Of a stretch of 64,000 nucleotides of DNA, positions 2,991 to 54,639 are shown piece after piece. Below the pieces are notes generated by a model. It was given only the letters and a program-made list of their open reading frames with translations, did not search any database and had not been told where the DNA came from. The first letter of the stretch is position 1; every line of letters begins with the position of its first letter. This DNA comes from Pseudogemmobacter humi. Its GTDB lineage: Bacteria > Pseudomonadota > Alphaproteobacteria > Rhodobacterales > Rhodobacteraceae. The position numbers and the translations under genes were made by a program. The DNA is taken from assembly GCF_900609055.1 (NCBI RefSeq), contig NZ_UXAW01000088.1, positions 1 to 64,000 of the forward strand, read 5' to 3'.

Positions 2991-3061
2991 CCTCATTTTC
3001 TGTCTGAAAATATCCCGGGGGGAGTCTGCGCAGCAGACGGGGGGCTGGCCCCCCGCGCCGG
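2991..3061 (+). repeat. Dispersed intergenic repeat, copy A1
   Basis: Contains the core CATTTTCTGTCTGAAAATAT followed by CCCGGGGGGA, then two hairpins (GTCTGCGCAGCAGAC and GGGGGGCTGGCCCCCC). The same core occurs at 8.82, 25.47, 45.5, 46.89 and 49.3 kb. It fills the gap upstream of trmJ and ahead of the ThiE-like gene. No coding potential is apparent. Confidence 0.8.
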
Positions 3062-3116
3062 TAGCCAAAGCCGCCAAAGCCTGCTAATTCCCCGCCAAAC
3101 CCTGCCGGAGCCCAAA

Positions 3117-3737
3117 ATGGCCAGTGACGACCGCCCGCAGATCACCCTGATCACCCCGCCCTCGTTCCAGACGGATATCTTCGCCGACCAACTGGCGCGG
3201 GTGCTCGACGCGGTGGACATCGCCTGCCTCAGGATCTCGCTCGCCACCAAAGACACCGACAACCTCGGCCACGCCGCCGATCTGTGCCGCGAGATCGCCC
3301 ATGCCCGCGACGTGGCGGTGGTGATCGACACCCATCTGCTGCTGGCCGAACGTCACGGGCTCGACGGCGTGCATCTGACCGACGGCGCGCGTTCGGTCAG
3401 GAAGGCGCGCAAGGATCTCGGCCCCGATGCCATCGTGGGCGCCTGGTGCGGCGCCAGCCGGCATGAGGGGCTGAACGCGGGCGAGGCGGGCGCGGATTAC
3501 GTGGCTTTCGGCCCGGTAGGCGACACGGGTCTGGGCGACGGCAGCCGCGCCGGGCACGACCTCTTTGCCTGGTGGTCCGAGATGATCGAAGTGCCGGTGA
3601 TCGCCGAGGGCGGGCTGAGCCTGGACCTGATCGAACGCTTCGCCCCGGTCAGCGATTTCTTCGCCATCGGCGAGGAGATCTGGCGCGCGGAAGACCCGCT
3701 CGCGGCGCTGAAGGCGCTGATCGCGCCGCTCGGCTGA
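3117..3737 (+). CDS. Thiamine-phosphate synthase family protein (ThiE/TenI-like)
   Basis: A 206-residue TIM-barrel protein of the TMP-TENI family, which couples hydroxymethylpyrimidine diphosphate and thiazole phosphate to make thiamine phosphate. Visible family motifs are LARVLDAVDIACLRIS, VAVVIDTHLLLAERHGLDGVH, IVGAWCGASRHEG, AGADYVAFGPVGDT and PVIAEGGLS. The N-terminal QITLITPP is also typical. No other thiamine gene is nearby, so it may be the main enzyme or a TenI-like paralogue; the replacement of the usual GxSxH loop by GAWCGASRH leaves this open. It converges with murI, with a short GGGAGGG/CCCTCCC hairpin between them. Confidence 0.75.
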   Translation: MASDDRPQITLITPPSFQTDIFADQLARVLDAVDIACLRISLATKDTDNLGHAADLCREIAHARDVAVVIDTHLLLAERHGLDGVHLTDGARSVRKARKDLGPDAIVGAWCGASRHEGLNAGEAGADYVAFGPVGDTGLGDGSRAGHDLFAWWSEMIEVPVIAEGGLSLDLIERFAPVSDFFAIGEEIWRAEDPLAALKALIAPLG

Positions 3738-3756
3738 GCCGCTTCAGGCCCGCGAA

Positions 3757-3775
3757 GGGAGGGCTCGCCCCTCCC
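3757..3775. terminator. Short GC hairpin between convergent genes
   Basis: GGGAGGG-CTCG-CCCCTCCC lies between the stop codons of the ThiE-like gene and murI. There is no strong T-run on either side, so it is a hairpin rather than a proven terminator. Confidence 0.35.
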
Positions 3776-3778
3776 CCC

Positions 3779-4591
3779 TCAGACCTTCCTGAACTGAATG
3801 TGGCGCTTCAGAAACCGCGTCGCATGGGCGCCGACCATCTCCGGCTCGCCGGTGGTGAGGAATTTCGACTCCGTCCCCGGGCCGAGGAATTCCGGCCTAC
3901 GCGCAAGGTAATCGGCGAGGCTTTCCGCCACCAGCTTCGCCTGGGAATAGACCCGCACCTGCGGCCCGAGCGCCTGCTGGAACACCTGCTCCATCAGCGG
4001 ATAATGGGTGCAGCCGAGGATCGCGGCCTCCGGATTGGGCATCCGCCGCTTCAGGGCCTCGACATGGCTTTTCACCAAAGCCTCGGCCAGGATCTCGTCG
4101 CCCTGTTCGATCGCATCGACCACGCCGCCGCAGGGCTGCGCCTCGACATCGACACCGATCGCGCGGAAGGCCAGCTCGCGCTGGAAGGCGCGGCTGGAAA
4201 CCGTCGCCGGCGTCGCGAACAGGGCCACATGTTTCACCGCCACCTCGCGCGGGGGCGAGTTGTCGCCCCATTGCCGCTCGGTCAGCGCCTCGATCAGCGG
4301 CACGAACACGCCAAGAACGCGCTTGTCCTTCGGCAGCCAGCTCTCCTGCATCCGCCGCAGCGCCGCGGCCGAGGCGGTGTTGCAGGCCAGAATCACCAGA
4401 TCGCAGCCCTCGGCCCACAGCCGTTCCACGGCGGCGCAGGTCAGATTGAAGATGTCCTCGGCATCGCGCACCCCGTAAGGCGCATGGGCATTGTCGCCGA
4501 AATAGACGAAGGGCACCTCGGGCAGCCGCCGCGCGACCGCATCCAGCACCGTCAGCCCGCCAAGGCCCGAATCAAAAACGCCGACCGCCAT
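3779..4591 (-). CDS. murI: Glutamate racemase
   Basis: Interconverts L- and D-glutamate to supply D-Glu for peptidoglycan stem peptides; cytoplasmic and cofactor independent. The 270-residue protein carries [14 protein letters not shown] at the N-terminus, the first catalytic Cys in ACNTAS (Cys70) and the second in GCTHYP (Cys194), with [11 protein letters not shown] between. Start ATG 4591 (MAVGVFDS) is chosen because the family begins exactly here; the frame stays open far upstream but is antisense to the LysR gene. It is divergent from that LysR gene, with 201 bp between them. Confidence 0.95.
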
Positions 4592-4792: not shown

Positions 4793-5686
4793 ATGGACTG
4801 GGACAAGCTGAGGATCTTTCACGCGGTTGCCGACAAGGGCAGCCTGACGCATGCGGGAGATGTGCTGCATCTGTCGCAATCGGCGGTCAGCCGGCAGATC
4901 CGCGCGCTTGAGGAAAGCCTCGACGTGACCCTGTTCCACCGCCATGCCCGCGGCCTGATCCTGACCGAACAGGGCGAACTGCTGTTCGAGGCCACCCAGG
5001 CCATGGCCAAGCGGCTCGACGCCGCCGCCGCGCGCATCCGCGACAGCGAGGATGAGGTGTTCGGCGAACTCCGCGTCACCACCACCATGGGGTTCGGCAC
5101 GCTCTGGCTGGCGCCGCGGCTGGCGCGGCTTTACGAGAAATTTCCCGCGCTCAAGATCGATCTGATGCTGGAGGAGCGCGTGCTCGACCTGCCGATGCGC
5201 GAGGCCGATGTCGCGATCCGCATGAAGGAACCGAGCCAGGCCGATCTGATCCGGCGCCGGCTGATGAACATCCGTATGCGGCTCTTCGCCTCGCCGGAAT
5301 ATATCCAGCGTCACGGCGCGCCGCAGAGCATGGCCGAGATGAGCCGGCACCGGCTGATCTGCCAGCATCCGGGCACCCCGCAGGTGGCCGCCGGCGCGCG
5401 GCTGGTGCAGGAGATCATGGCGCATGAGATCCCCTCGACCCTGCACGTCAACAATTACTTCGGCGTGCTCCAGGGGGTGATCAACCATCTCGGGGTCGGC
5501 GTGCTGCCCGATTACATCACCGAGGACAGCCCCAGCCTCGTGCGGGTTCTGGAGGATGTGGAATCGGGCGAGGTGCCGGTCTTCCTCGCCTATCCCGAGG
5601 AATTGCGCCATTCCAAGCGCGTGGCCGCGTTCCGCGATTTCGTGTCCGACGAGATCCAGAACTTCCGCCGCAGCCATCAGAGCTGA
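4793..5686 (+). CDS. LysR-type transcriptional regulator, VtlR/LsrB-like
   Basis: A 297-residue LTTR. The winged HTH occupies residues 1-60 ([20 protein letters not shown]... [15 protein letters not shown]) and the co-inducer domain about 90-295. The N-terminus resembles VtlR/LsrB of rhizobia and Brucella, where the regulator directly activates the adjacent AbcR-type sRNA gene. The same arrangement appears here: a T-N11-A dyad and an sRNA-like unit lie 130-300 bp downstream of the stop codon. ATG 4793 is chosen for its match to the family start; the longer open frame upstream is not coding. The subfamily call is inference from N-terminal similarity and context; the LTTR call itself is certain. 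Confidence 0.9.
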
Positions 5687-5705
5687 GGCGGCGCTCCGGG
5701 CGGCC

Positions 5706-5748
5706 AAAAATCTTCCAGGATTTTTGCAAATTCCTTTGAAGGAATTTG
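5706..5748. repeat. Tandem palindromes, copy P1
   Basis: Two adjacent inverted repeats: AAAAATC...GATTTTT (5706-5725) and a 22-bp palindrome CAAATTCCTT-TG-AAGGAATTTG (5727-5748), followed by TCTGCCT. The same layout with different arm sequences is found after the Hint gene (55378-55421). It sits 20 bp after the LysR stop and may act as a 3'-end hairpin or terminator. Confidence 0.75.
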
Positions 5749-5822
5749 TCTGCCTCCTTTGACGCCGCGCCGCGGCGAAAGGCTGAATTCCGCGGCGATT
5801 TCAAAAGCGAAGGTGACAGCCA

Positions 5823-5835
5823 TGCGTATCGCGCA
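5823..5835. promoter_or_regulatory. Candidate LysR box (T-N11-A dyad)
   Basis: TGCG-TATCG-CGCA forms a dyad (flanked by CA/TG to give CATGCG...CGCATG) with the T-N11-A spacing of LysR recognition sites. Its centre is about 75 bp before the predicted sRNA start, the usual position for an LTTR activation site. Binding by the upstream LysR protein is inferred. Confidence 0.5.
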
Positions 5836-5869
5836 TGGCGGACATGCTGCACCTGCGACATCCCTGCTC

Positions 5870-5898
5870 TTGAACCCTTTGCAAACTGCCCATAAATA
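5870..5898 (+). promoter_or_regulatory. Predicted promoter of the sRNA
   Basis: A -35 TTGAAC (5870-5875) and a -10-like TAAATA (5893-5898) are separated by 17 bp, giving a start near 5904. The -10 matches consensus poorly, which fits an activator-dependent promoter. Confidence 0.45.
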
Positions 5899-5903
5899 GT
5901 GCT

Positions 5904-5982
5904 GCGAGGCGCTGATCAGGGCAACCTGATCGCCCTCACCTCCCTGTTGGACTTAGGCCGAGCTTTGCTCGGCCTTTTTTTT
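5904..5982 (+). ncRNA. Putative AbcR/alpha-r15-like trans-acting sRNA
   Basis: A compact unit of about 79 nt with no open frame. Hairpin 1 is GGCG(CT)GATCAGG-GCAA-CCTGATCGCC (5908-5934). A single-stranded stretch CACCTCCCTGTTGG (5937-5950) is complementary to Shine-Dalgarno sequences. Hairpin 2 is a textbook Rho-independent terminator, GGCCGAGC-TTT-GCTCGGCC followed by eight T (5956-5982). AbcR-family sRNAs of Rhizobiales repress ABC-transporter mRNAs through exposed CUCCC-type motifs and lie next to vtlR/lsrB. The structure is seen directly; family membership and targets are inference. Confidence 0.6.
5956..5982 (+). terminator. Rho-independent terminator of the sRNA
   Basis: Perfect 8-bp stem GGCCGAGC/GCTCGGCC with a TTT loop and a run of eight T. 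It is the strongest intrinsic terminator in the window. Confidence 0.9.
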
Positions 5983-6142
5983 GCGCCTGCCCGTTAGCGC
6001 AACCGCCGCTCTGCGGCGTCAGGGGTGCAGCGCTTTCGCGCCAGATTCGCCGCCCCGCCCCGTCCCGGCCCCTTCCCCAATCGCGCCGCATGTCCTAAGA
6101 GGCGGGCCAGATTTCCCGTCTGACGCGCCCGGAGGCAGATCC

Positions 6143-8323
6143 ATGACCAAGAGCGAAGCCGCACAAGAGCCCGCGATCACCCCGGAACTGGTGGCCTCGC
6201 ACGGGATCAAACCCGACGAATACCAGCGCCTGCTGGAAATCCTCGGCCGCGAACCCTCGTTCACCGAACTGGGGATCTTCTCGGCGATGTGGAACGAGCA
6301 TTGCTCGTATAAGTCGTCGAAGAAATGGCTGCGCACCCTGCCGACCACCGGCCCGCAGGTGATCTGCGGCCCGGGTGAGAACGCGGGCGTGGTCGATATC
6401 GGCGACGGCCAGGCGGTGATCTTCAAGATGGAGAGCCACAACCATCCGTCCTATATCGAGCCGCATCAGGGCGCGGCGACCGGCGTGGGCGGCATCCTGC
6501 GCGATGTATTCACCATGGGCGCGCGGCCCGTTGCGGCGATGAACTCGCTTTCCTTCGGCCTGCCCTCGCATCCCAAGACCGCGCATCTGGTGAAGGGCGT
6601 GGTCGAGGGCGTCGGCTCTTACGGCAACGCCTTCGGCGTGCCGACGGTCGGCGGCGAGGTGCGTTTTCACCGCAGCTATAACGGCAACTGCCTCGTGAAC
6701 GCTTTTGCGGCGGGGCTGGCCGATACCGACAAGATCTTCTACTCGGCCGCCTCCGGTGTGGGGATGCCGGTGGTCTATCTCGGCGCCAAGACCGGCCGCG
6801 ACGGCGTGGGCGGGGCGACCATGGCCTCGGCGGAATTCGACGACACGATCGAGGAAAAGCGCCCCACCGTCCAGGTCGGCGACCCCTTCACCGAAAAGCG
6901 CCTGCTGGAGGCCTGTCTGGAACTGATGCAGACCGGCGCGGTGATCTCGATCCAGGACATGGGCGCGGCTGGCCTGACCTGTTCGGCAGTCGAGATGGGC
7001 GACAAGGGCGGCCTTGGGATCAGGCTGCAACTGAACGACGTGCCGCAGCGCGAGACCGGCATGACGGCCTATGAGATGATGCTCTCGGAAAGCCAGGAGC
7101 GGATGCTCATGGTGCTGAACCCCGAGATGGAAGACGTGGCCCGCGCGATCTTCGTCAAATGGGATCTCGATTTCGCCATCGTCGGCGAAACCATCCCCGA
7201 GGACCGCTTCCTGATCCTGCACGGCAATGAGATCAAGGCTGATATCCAGCTTTCCAAACTGTCGTCCTCGGCGCCGGAATACGACCGGCCCTGGGTGGAA
7301 ACGCCCGCGCCCGCGGCCCTCGCGGAAGTGCCGCAGATCGGCGCCATCGACGGGCTGCGCGCGCTGATCGGCTCGCCGTCCTACGCCCACAAAGGCTGGG
7401 TTTTCGAGCAATACGACAGCCAGGTCGGCGCCGATACCGTTGTGACGCCGGGCCTGCCGGCGGGGGTGGTGCGGGTGCATGGCACGCAAAAGGCCCTCGC
7501 CTTCACCTCGGACGTGACCCCGCGCTACGTCAAGGCCAACCCGTATCAGGGCGGCAAGCAGGCGGTAGCCGAGGCGTACCGCAACCTCACAGCCATCGGC
7601 GCGCTGCCTTTGGCCACCACCGACAACATGAACTTCGGCAACCCGGAAAAGCCCGAGATCATGGGCCAGTTCGTCGGCGCCATCAAAGGCATCGGTGCGG
7701 CGGTCGAGGCTTTGGACATGCCGATCGTGTCGGGCAATGTCTCGCTCTACAACGAGACCGACGGCCAGCCGATCCTGCCCACGCCGACCATCGGCGCGGT
7801 GGGGATCCTCGCCTCGCTCGACGATCTGATCGCCGGGAAACCGGCCGAAGGCGACGTGGCGCTGCTGATCGGCGAGAGCTTCGGCCATCTCGGCCAGTCG
7901 GCGCTGCTGGCGGAAGCCTTCGGGATCGAGGCGGGCGATGCGCCGCCGGTCGATCTGGCGGCCGAGAAGCTGAACGGTGATTTCCTGCGCAGCCAGCGCC
8001 GCAACATCGTGGCGGCGACCGATCTGGGCGACGGCGGCCTTGCGCTGGCGGCTTTTGAGTTGGCCGAGGGCGCCGGGATCGGCGTCACGCTGACCGTCCA
8101 GGACACCGCGGCGCTGTTCGGCGAGGACCAGGCCCGCTATCTGGTCGCGGCCCGCGAAAGCGGCGCGGCGGAGATCGAGGCCGCGGCGCTGGCCGCTGGT
8201 GTCCCGGTCACGCGGGTGGGCAGGTTCGGGGGCTCCACGGTCGTCTTCGGGGCGGAAAGCGCGCCGCTCGCGGAGCTTTCCGCGCTCTACCGCAGCGCCT
8301 TCGCCTGCGCCATCGGCGGATGA
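6143..8323 (+). CDS. purL: Phosphoribosylformylglycinamidine synthase II (PurL)
   Basis: ATP-dependent amidation of FGAR to FGAM in de novo purine synthesis; as the small-type PurL it needs PurQ and PurS, which are not in this window. The 726-residue protein shows the family landmarks [52 protein letters not shown] and [13 protein letters not shown]. Start ATG 6143 has a good SD (GGAGG) 8 bp upstream, and the protein aligns to the family from there. The GNAT gene overlaps its stop by 4 bp, suggesting cotranscription. No purine riboswitch is visible upstream; the sRNA terminator insulates it from the LysR gene. Confidence 0.97.
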
Positions 8324-54554: not shown

Positions 54555-54639
54555 TGGTGCGGGTGAAGGGACTTGAACCCCCACGCCGTAAGGCGCCGGA
54601 ACCTAAATCCGGTGCGTCTGCCAATTCCGCCACACCCGC
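54555..54639 (-). tRNA. tRNA-Leu (anticodon UAG)
   Basis: 85 nt including an encoded CCA. Acceptor GCGGGTG / CACCCGC with discriminator A; D-arm with GGCGGAATTGGCAGACGC; anticodon stem CCGGA / TCCGG with loop TTTAGGT (anticodon TAG); long class II variable arm CGCCTTACGGCGT; T-arm with GGTTCAAGTCC. Reads CUN codons. Transcribed toward tig. Confidence 0.95.

Follow-up and report, generated by a model that had tools for sequence, protein, structure and literature searches.

The locus lies within a 64,000-nt stretch of the Pseudogemmobacter humi genome (the window). It consists of a LysR-type regulator gene, whose product carries the Pfam domains HTH_1 and LysR_substrate, followed by a dyad of the LysR-operator type, a promoter-like site and a predicted small RNA (sRNA) that ends in an intrinsic terminator (Table 1). 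The LysR coding sequence lies within a longer open frame. This is the order of elements given in the preliminary description of this DNA. At the gathering level, the sole Rfam match in the window is a tRNA gene (54558-54639, minus strand). None of the best 25 of 56 NCBIfam families reached its own cut-off.

Table 1. Coordinates of the features at the LysR-sRNA locus
Feature	Position	Strand	Basis
LysR-type regulator (P0001, 297 aa), supported member of the VtlR/LsrB orthologue group	4793-5686	+	ORF, Pfam, 9HH1 match, tree, bit gap to other own LysR proteins
Putative LysR operator ATGC-N7-GCAT (5823-5835 in the preliminary description)	5822-5836		Dyad in 8+8-nt inverted repeat 5819-5839
Second imperfect dyad ATGCTGCA-CC-TGCGACAT between operator and -35	5844-5861		48/80 Rhodobacterales loci, at most 4 mismatches
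RpoHI/RpoHII-like promoter CTTG...TAAAT; predicted +1 G5906	5869-5897	+	Base pattern and features in the accessible text of PMC3441632
Predicted SorY-type sRNA	5906-5982	+	Rfam SorY 54.8 bits, R1 25.2 bits, fold z -6.04
5' hairpin of the sRNA	5906-5937	+	Fold
Conserved core CACCUCCCUGUUGGACUU with anti-Shine-Dalgarno CCUCCCU	5937-5954	+	Conservation and unpaired probability
Intrinsic terminator, stem 5955-5975 and T tail	5955-5982	+	Terminator scan, fold

Conservation was examined in 80 relatives, fetched and ranked by LysR similarity. The sRNA core CTCCCTGTTGGA follows the LysR gene on the same strand, with at most one mismatch, in 79 of them. The single exception (L072) carries a different sequence after LysR (3890-4500) and was dropped; the 79 others and the window make up the 80 Rhodobacterales loci used below. 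In a further sample, drawn from across the family, the LysR was present in 56/61 genomes, and 54 of these 56 loci were fetched, the own genome and G154 being left out as already in the set. The core was found by pattern in 49 of the 54 loci. Among these 49, the dyad is exact in 28 and within one mismatch in 43, the promoter is present in 42, and 36 have both. Other LysR genes of the P. humi genome served as a control (35 matched, 29 loci taken, one of which, L259, gave no alignment), and dyad and core were absent downstream of all 28 that remained.

The structured sRNA with a hairpin and a terminator that had been described earlier was confirmed by folding. The predicted folding energy of segment 5902-5982 is -39.4 kcal/mol (z -6.04), none of 200 shuffled sequences did as well, and the terminator stem is followed by a T run. 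The anti-Shine-Dalgarno stretch, said to be exposed, is indeed mostly unpaired: the mean unpaired probability of CUCCCU is 0.62, and it exceeds 0.5 in 66/80 Rhodobacterales loci. RNAalifold on the 80 SorY sequences recovered the terminator and not the 5' hairpin, the sequence of which varies. In single folds, a hairpin closes before the core in 51 of the 80 sequences.

Family and promoter region of the sRNA

The best Rfam match to the sRNA is SorY (RF02651), with 54.8 bits at 5907-5982 (E 2.3e-10), and the cut-off of 111 bits is not reached. SorX (RF02784) came second with 40.3 bits and a cut-off of 46.6, and mmgR/suhB (RF00519) scored 26.8 bits, under its cut-off of 41. The SorY model exceeds its cut-off, with 111.4 bits, in Luteovulum azotoformans (L033) at 4067-4148, after a LysR gene at 3001-3891, and two more relatives (L003, L016) have a SorX match over cut-off behind their LysR genes; thus, the place downstream of LysR is the SorY place. 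The other 12 of the 15 relatives scanned at the Rfam gathering threshold had no match over cut-off. By these scores, the window sRNA is best described as a diverged SorY-type RNA. According to the accessible text of PMC8307010 and PMC5036791, SorY of R. sphaeroides depends on RpoHI/RpoHII, co-precipitates with Hfq and targets the mRNA of a malate transporter. Elsewhere in the P. humi genome (L308:970-1197, contig C84), the gene of an OmpR-type response regulator is followed by a SorX that scores 70.1 bits and, directly behind that, by a weaker SorX-like copy (24.8 bits), which contains CTCCCTGTTGGACTT and ends in a terminator-like sequence.

Target prediction against ribosome-binding sites, which had been suggested for this sRNA, gave putative candidates. 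A scan of the own genome for CAGGGAGG-N3-9-ATG found 17 sites compared with 1 for the reversed pattern, but any ribosome-binding site is enriched in this way. In L307, L296, L302 and L303, CAGGGAGG, which is complementary to the sRNA core, stands in start regions ahead of ORFs that resemble, by eye, katG, a sugar-binding protein and sox cytochromes; these are putative targets. A pyruvate-kinase-like gene, also named by eye, is among the candidates of the scan.

Upstream of the sRNA, an inverted repeat of 8+8 nt (5819-5826/5832-5839) encloses the ATGC-N7-GCAT dyad. The LysR-type dyad of the preliminary description is real: it is exact in 63/80 Rhodobacterales loci and within one mismatch in 79/80 (all except L070), compared with 0.2% and 5.1%, respectively, in mononucleotide shuffles of these loci. 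The coordinates given in that description are right, and only its distance of about 75 bp from dyad to promoter needs correction: the predicted +1 lies about 77 nt downstream of the dyad centre, and the -35 TTG only about 35 nt downstream. The dyad runs into GCAT-N3-GG-N3-T (5833-5845), which is one mismatch from the VtlR box GCAT-N3-TG-N3-T given in the accessible text of PMC7486931. The strict operator ATGC-N7-GCAT-RNCGG occurs five times in the genome, once at the sRNA promoter, and two of the other four sites resemble coding sequence by eye. Such a count is consistent with a regulator that has few sites, which is what the accessible text of PMC7486931 reports for VtlR of A. tumefaciens. 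The second dyad lies between the operator and the -35 element; 48/80 loci have it with at most four mismatches, compared with 0.85/80 after shuffling. At about -53, it is possibly an activation half-site.

The -35 TTG lies at 5870-5872 and the -10 TAAAT at 5893-5897, and the promoter bases are C-37, T-36 T-35 G-34, T-13, A-12 and T-9. The features named for RpoHI and/or RpoHII promoters in the accessible text of PMC3441632, as distinct from its logos, are TTG, A-12, T-9, C-37, C-14 and T-13. TTG together with T-13, A-12 and T-9 is found in 76/80 Rhodobacterales loci when the spacer is free by up to 2 (shuffles 5.6%), and the spacer length is unchanged in 76/80. A simple scan of 5600-6200 did not find a sigma-70-type promoter (shuffles 0.0). 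From its bases, the sRNA promoter looks to be of the RpoHI/RpoHII type, so that a heat-shock/singlet-oxygen-type promoter and a candidate LysR operator appear to be stacked on one sRNA.

One explanation for this arrangement is that a SorY-type RNA is driven by RpoHI/RpoHII alone. The LysR would then be a conserved neighbour that controls its own gene or others, and the dyad would be no activator site. The reported RpoHI/RpoHII dependence of SorY and the fit of the promoter bases to that type both agree with it, but the position of the dyad does not. The dyad starts 114-123 nt before the sRNA core in 60/79 loci, and it stays beside the sRNA when the core is more than 1 kb past the LysR stop, as in L005 and L050. 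We consider this explanation unlikely.

The regulator and the class-wide sRNA

The regulator had been called VtlR-like, and this is supported. The best solved relative of the window LysR is PDB 9HH1 (250 bits; next structure 109 bits), identified as A. tumefaciens LsrB in the accessible text of PMC11975290, and the window protein is 40% identical to A. tumefaciens LsrB. The next-best LysR of the own genome has 109 bits compared with 651 bits for the window LysR itself. In a tree of 54 rows, in which the outgroup branches are long and the bootstrap is unsettled, LsrB and the class and Rhodobacterales rows split from five own-genome LysR proteins at 95/84, and LsrB falls inside the group of class rows. 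With the window LysR as the query, matches at E<=1e-40 were found in 170/289 genomes of the class, with a single match in 155 (counted by eye). The LsrB query matched 183/385 class genomes at E<=1e-80, and the five genomes of the window's family fall under that threshold. The closest class-sample protein to A. tumefaciens LsrB has 55% identity; since the samples held no close lsrB, the lsrB-abcR adjacency was taken from papers. The comparisons support the window LysR as the Rhodobacterales orthologue of VtlR/LsrB. The spread of LsrB orthologues across the class disagrees with the statement, in the accessible text of PMC11975290, that LsrB is unique to Rhizobiales.

Orthology to LsrB does not extend to its redox switch. 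The cysteines C144 and C273, for which redox data are given in the accessible text of PMC11975290, align with V and A in the window protein, and the LsrB cysteine switch was rejected for it. The C273 column is A in 80/80 Rhodobacterales loci and V in 126/146 other class loci, and the C144 column is C in 11/146 non-Rhodobacterales class loci. The trxB signature CATCDG was not found in the 1500 nt upstream of LysR in the window and three family relatives. It is found upstream of LysR in 115/150 class loci, and for 29 of the 35 loci missing it the available flank was no longer than 800 nt; trxB is upstream of the regulator in A. tumefaciens too (PMC7486931, accessible text). With neither the redox cysteine pair nor a trxB neighbour, the regulator need not respond to the input signal of LsrB.

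From the 170 LysR-bearing class genomes, 150 loci were fetched; the window and three others of these belong to the window's family. In 72/150 loci (68/146 without the window's family), the 450 nt that follow the LysR stop contain the dyad, and the controls per 150 loci gave 1.0 in shuffled sequence, 4 upstream and 5 inside the gene. The dyad with the published VtlR tail is present in 25/150, with 0 in shuffled sequence and 0 in both controls. The exact box GCAT-N3-TG-N3-T follows LysR in 33/150 loci (shuffled 4.1, upstream 8, inside gene 10). The loose half-box GCAT-N3-NG-N3-T, which is the form in the window, occurs in 61/150 downstream, 104/150 upstream and 81/150 inside the gene. Of this loose half-box and the full dyad, only the dyad is specific. 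CTCCCTG with a T run behind it was found in 81/150 loci (77/146 without the window's family), and the core GUGAAGCCUCCCUG, with at most three mismatches and a T run, in 80 of the 146 non-Rhodobacterales loci. An anti-Shine-Dalgarno sRNA with the core GACGUGAAGCCUCCCUGUU often follows the same LysR and dyad throughout the class.

Four loci (L088, L094, L100, L144) have at least two CUCCC-rich, sRNA-like units in tandem after LysR, some with their own dyads. Another four (L171, L190, L198, L227) have a dyad after LysR without the canonical core; C-rich stretches follow, which are possibly further diverged sRNAs.

A model, R1, was built from this class-wide sRNA. Of the 80 motif loci, 24 were left out by hand and 56 were listed, of which 47 were aligned (A1); the rest were left out for odd terminators, for length or to keep the set small. 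R1 was built from these 47 loci and contains no Rhodobacterales sequence. In A1, 78 cells were changed on both sides compared with 21 when shuffled, nearly all in the terminator helix, and the automatic structure of R1 is the terminator only. A hairpin with CUCCCA in its loop, a structure named by the analyst, is nearly invariant in its pairs (helix 1, 1/5 pairs changed on both sides) and is therefore weakly tested by covariation.

R1 matches 134/289 class genomes at E<=1e-4. Placement was counted on 150 listed matches, which represent 121 of the 134 genomes, and 16 genomes without a LysR place (own genome included) were set aside. Among the matches listed, an R1 match lies at most 6.5 kb downstream of LysR on the same strand in 93/105 genomes, at most 600 nt in 83, and elsewhere in 12/105; 47 of the downstream loci trained R1 and match by construction. 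A relaxed Rfam scan of 18 class loci, 12 of them with the core, gave no match at cut-off, the best being SorX with 42.6 of the 46.6 bits needed, and none of 20 further core-bearing loci had a match over cut-off. Another 20 loci were scanned that had been chosen for lacking the core (one had it) and say little on Rfam.

The sRNA of the Rhodobacterales resembles the class-wide sRNA, as R1 recovers the SorY place in 79/80 Rhodobacterales loci and in the window, and matches 51/54 loci of the family sample. Alternatively, SorY and the class-wide sRNA could be unrelated RNAs that arrived independently at an anti-Shine-Dalgarno stretch with a terminator behind it. In line with this, the ribosome-binding site favours CCUCCCU, terminators occur widely, and the R1 match in the window (5939-5980, 25.2 bits) spans only model positions 22-66. 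Convergence does not account well for the likeness in gene order, operator and strand, for the shared CCUCCCUGUU-ACUU or for the recovery of SorY places by R1, and we find it quite unlikely.

Relation to AbcR and SorY

The sRNA had been proposed to be AbcR-like, with a search by the alpha-r15 covariance model as a check. That search went against the proposal: the ar15 model (RF02345) had no match up to E 10 in 5690-6150, and membership of the window sRNA in AbcR/ar15 was rejected. The model was also unmatched in the own genome and was over cut-off in 0/289 class genomes; three class genomes had matches below the cut-off (24.4-28.1 bits), none of them on the LysR contig. As a positive control, ar15 was found on S. 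meliloti pSymA with 94.2 bits, so the ar15 search works. The exact VtlR box GCATAGCTGTATT lies just upstream of this pSymA RNA (L311:1501-1609), and this ar15 copy may also be under LsrB, judging from the box. R1 scores the pSymA RNA at only 3.7 bits. Homology between ar15 and R1 was not detected, and thus the case for common descent with AbcR is one of neighbourhood, box and motif only.

A true Rhodobacterales AbcR under VtlR would be expected to share the kind of regulator, the neighbourhood and the anti-Shine-Dalgarno motif, all of which are alike here, and the M1 motif of AbcR, CUCCCA (PMC5461406, accessible text), is found in 61 of the 80 core-bearing class-wide sRNAs. The window core, however, has CCUCCCUG instead of CUCCCA or GUUCCC, and neither the ar15 search nor the R1 score links the RNAs. 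We regard a true AbcR as highly improbable, and AbcR family membership of the window sRNA as largely refuted. As for the broader idea of a Rhodobacterales version of the VtlR-AbcR module, the orthologous LysR and the conserved dyad stand, but the sRNA is not ar15 and its promoter looks RpoH-type.

We think it probable that the locus is a LysR-sRNA module that shares its descent with those of the rest of the class, in which LysR activates a SorY-type sRNA that represses mRNAs under stress. In this module, LysR would bind the ATGC-N7-GCAT operator at about -77, with the second dyad (about -53) as a possible further site, and bound LysR would raise transcription from the RpoHI/RpoHII-type promoter. 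The SorY-type sRNA, with Hfq, would pair via CCUCCCU with the ribosome-binding sites of selected mRNAs. Its targets are probably transport and metabolic genes, the expression of which would be lowered under oxidative or heat stress. For P. humi, the activation by LysR, the signal sensed and the targets are what we infer. Two inputs would stand before the one window sRNA. SorY is reported to be RpoHI/RpoHII-dependent and the literature seen in this connection names no LysR; therefore, LysR could be minor or could be a repressor.

In Rhizobiales, papers on relatives describe VtlR/LsrB as the activator of AbcR1. The accessible text of PMC8844928 states that LsrB drives AbcR1 and RpoH1 drives AbcR2 in S. 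meliloti, and describes synteny of the AbcR1 region across alphaproteobacteria. PMC7486931, in its accessible text, differs from this and reports no role of LsrB in S. meliloti. A wider reading, about which we are evenly divided, traces SorY, AbcR and the class-wide GACGUGAAGCCUCCCUGUU RNA back to a single ancestral alphaproteobacterial sRNA that arose beside VtlR/LsrB and is switched on by it. The Rhodobacterales would have fused the LysR operator with an RpoH promoter into a single switch with two inputs, and in the Rhizobiales the sRNA would have been duplicated, with AbcR1 answering to LsrB and AbcR2 to RpoH1. Under this reading, the ancestral signal would have been something other than that of LsrB, as most class-sample regulators are without the LsrB cysteine pair; since these redox cysteines are rarely conserved in the class sample, the question of the ancestral signal can be tested.

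These observations join two literatures, that on SorY in photo-oxidative stress of Rhodobacter and that on VtlR/LsrB-AbcR in host interaction of Rhizobiales, and suggest a common origin for two stress-RNA systems that have been studied apart. In the literature searched, no on-topic paper paired SorY or SorX with AbcR or LsrB, and Adnan 2015 (SorY) and Peng 2016 (SorX) may describe the neighbourhood. The core letters, searched as text, were found in three papers, all on human topics as judged by title. SorY itself has already been described in Rhodobacter, and the wider finding is a regulator-sRNA pair distributed across the class. For SorY, the locus provides a candidate transcription factor and operator, and the class-wide results point to a widespread sRNA family that exceeded an Rfam cut-off in none of the scanned loci with the core (0/12 and 0/20).

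Compared with SorY, the window sRNA has an identical ACCUCCCUGUUGGACUU core and the same terminator layout, and its predicted +1 is one base from the first base of the model; the 5' hairpin has diverged, the score is about half of the cut-off, and the literature seen names RpoHI/RpoHII for SorY and no LysR link. With SorX it shares CCUCCCUGUUGGA and the terminator, but SorX proper is a 3'-UTR product (PMC5036791, accessible text), and the P. humi genome has its own SorX after the OmpR-type gene. The motifs CUCCCU and GACUU are common to mmgR/suhB and the window sRNA, with the score under the cut-off. The tandem CUCCC-rich units of L088, L094, L100 and L144 are reminiscent of abcR1-abcR2. The likeness to VtlR/LsrB-AbcR1 lies in the orthologous LysR, the sRNA directly downstream and the similar box, and the anti-Shine-Dalgarno action known of AbcR1 has its counterpart in the anti-Shine-Dalgarno stretch of the window sRNA. 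The differences are that the window sRNA is not ar15 by covariance model and that the redox cysteine pair and the adjoining trxB are absent. Finally, the window has an RpoH-like promoter and a putative operator before one sRNA, whereas in Sinorhizobium the two inputs are split between AbcR2 and AbcR1.
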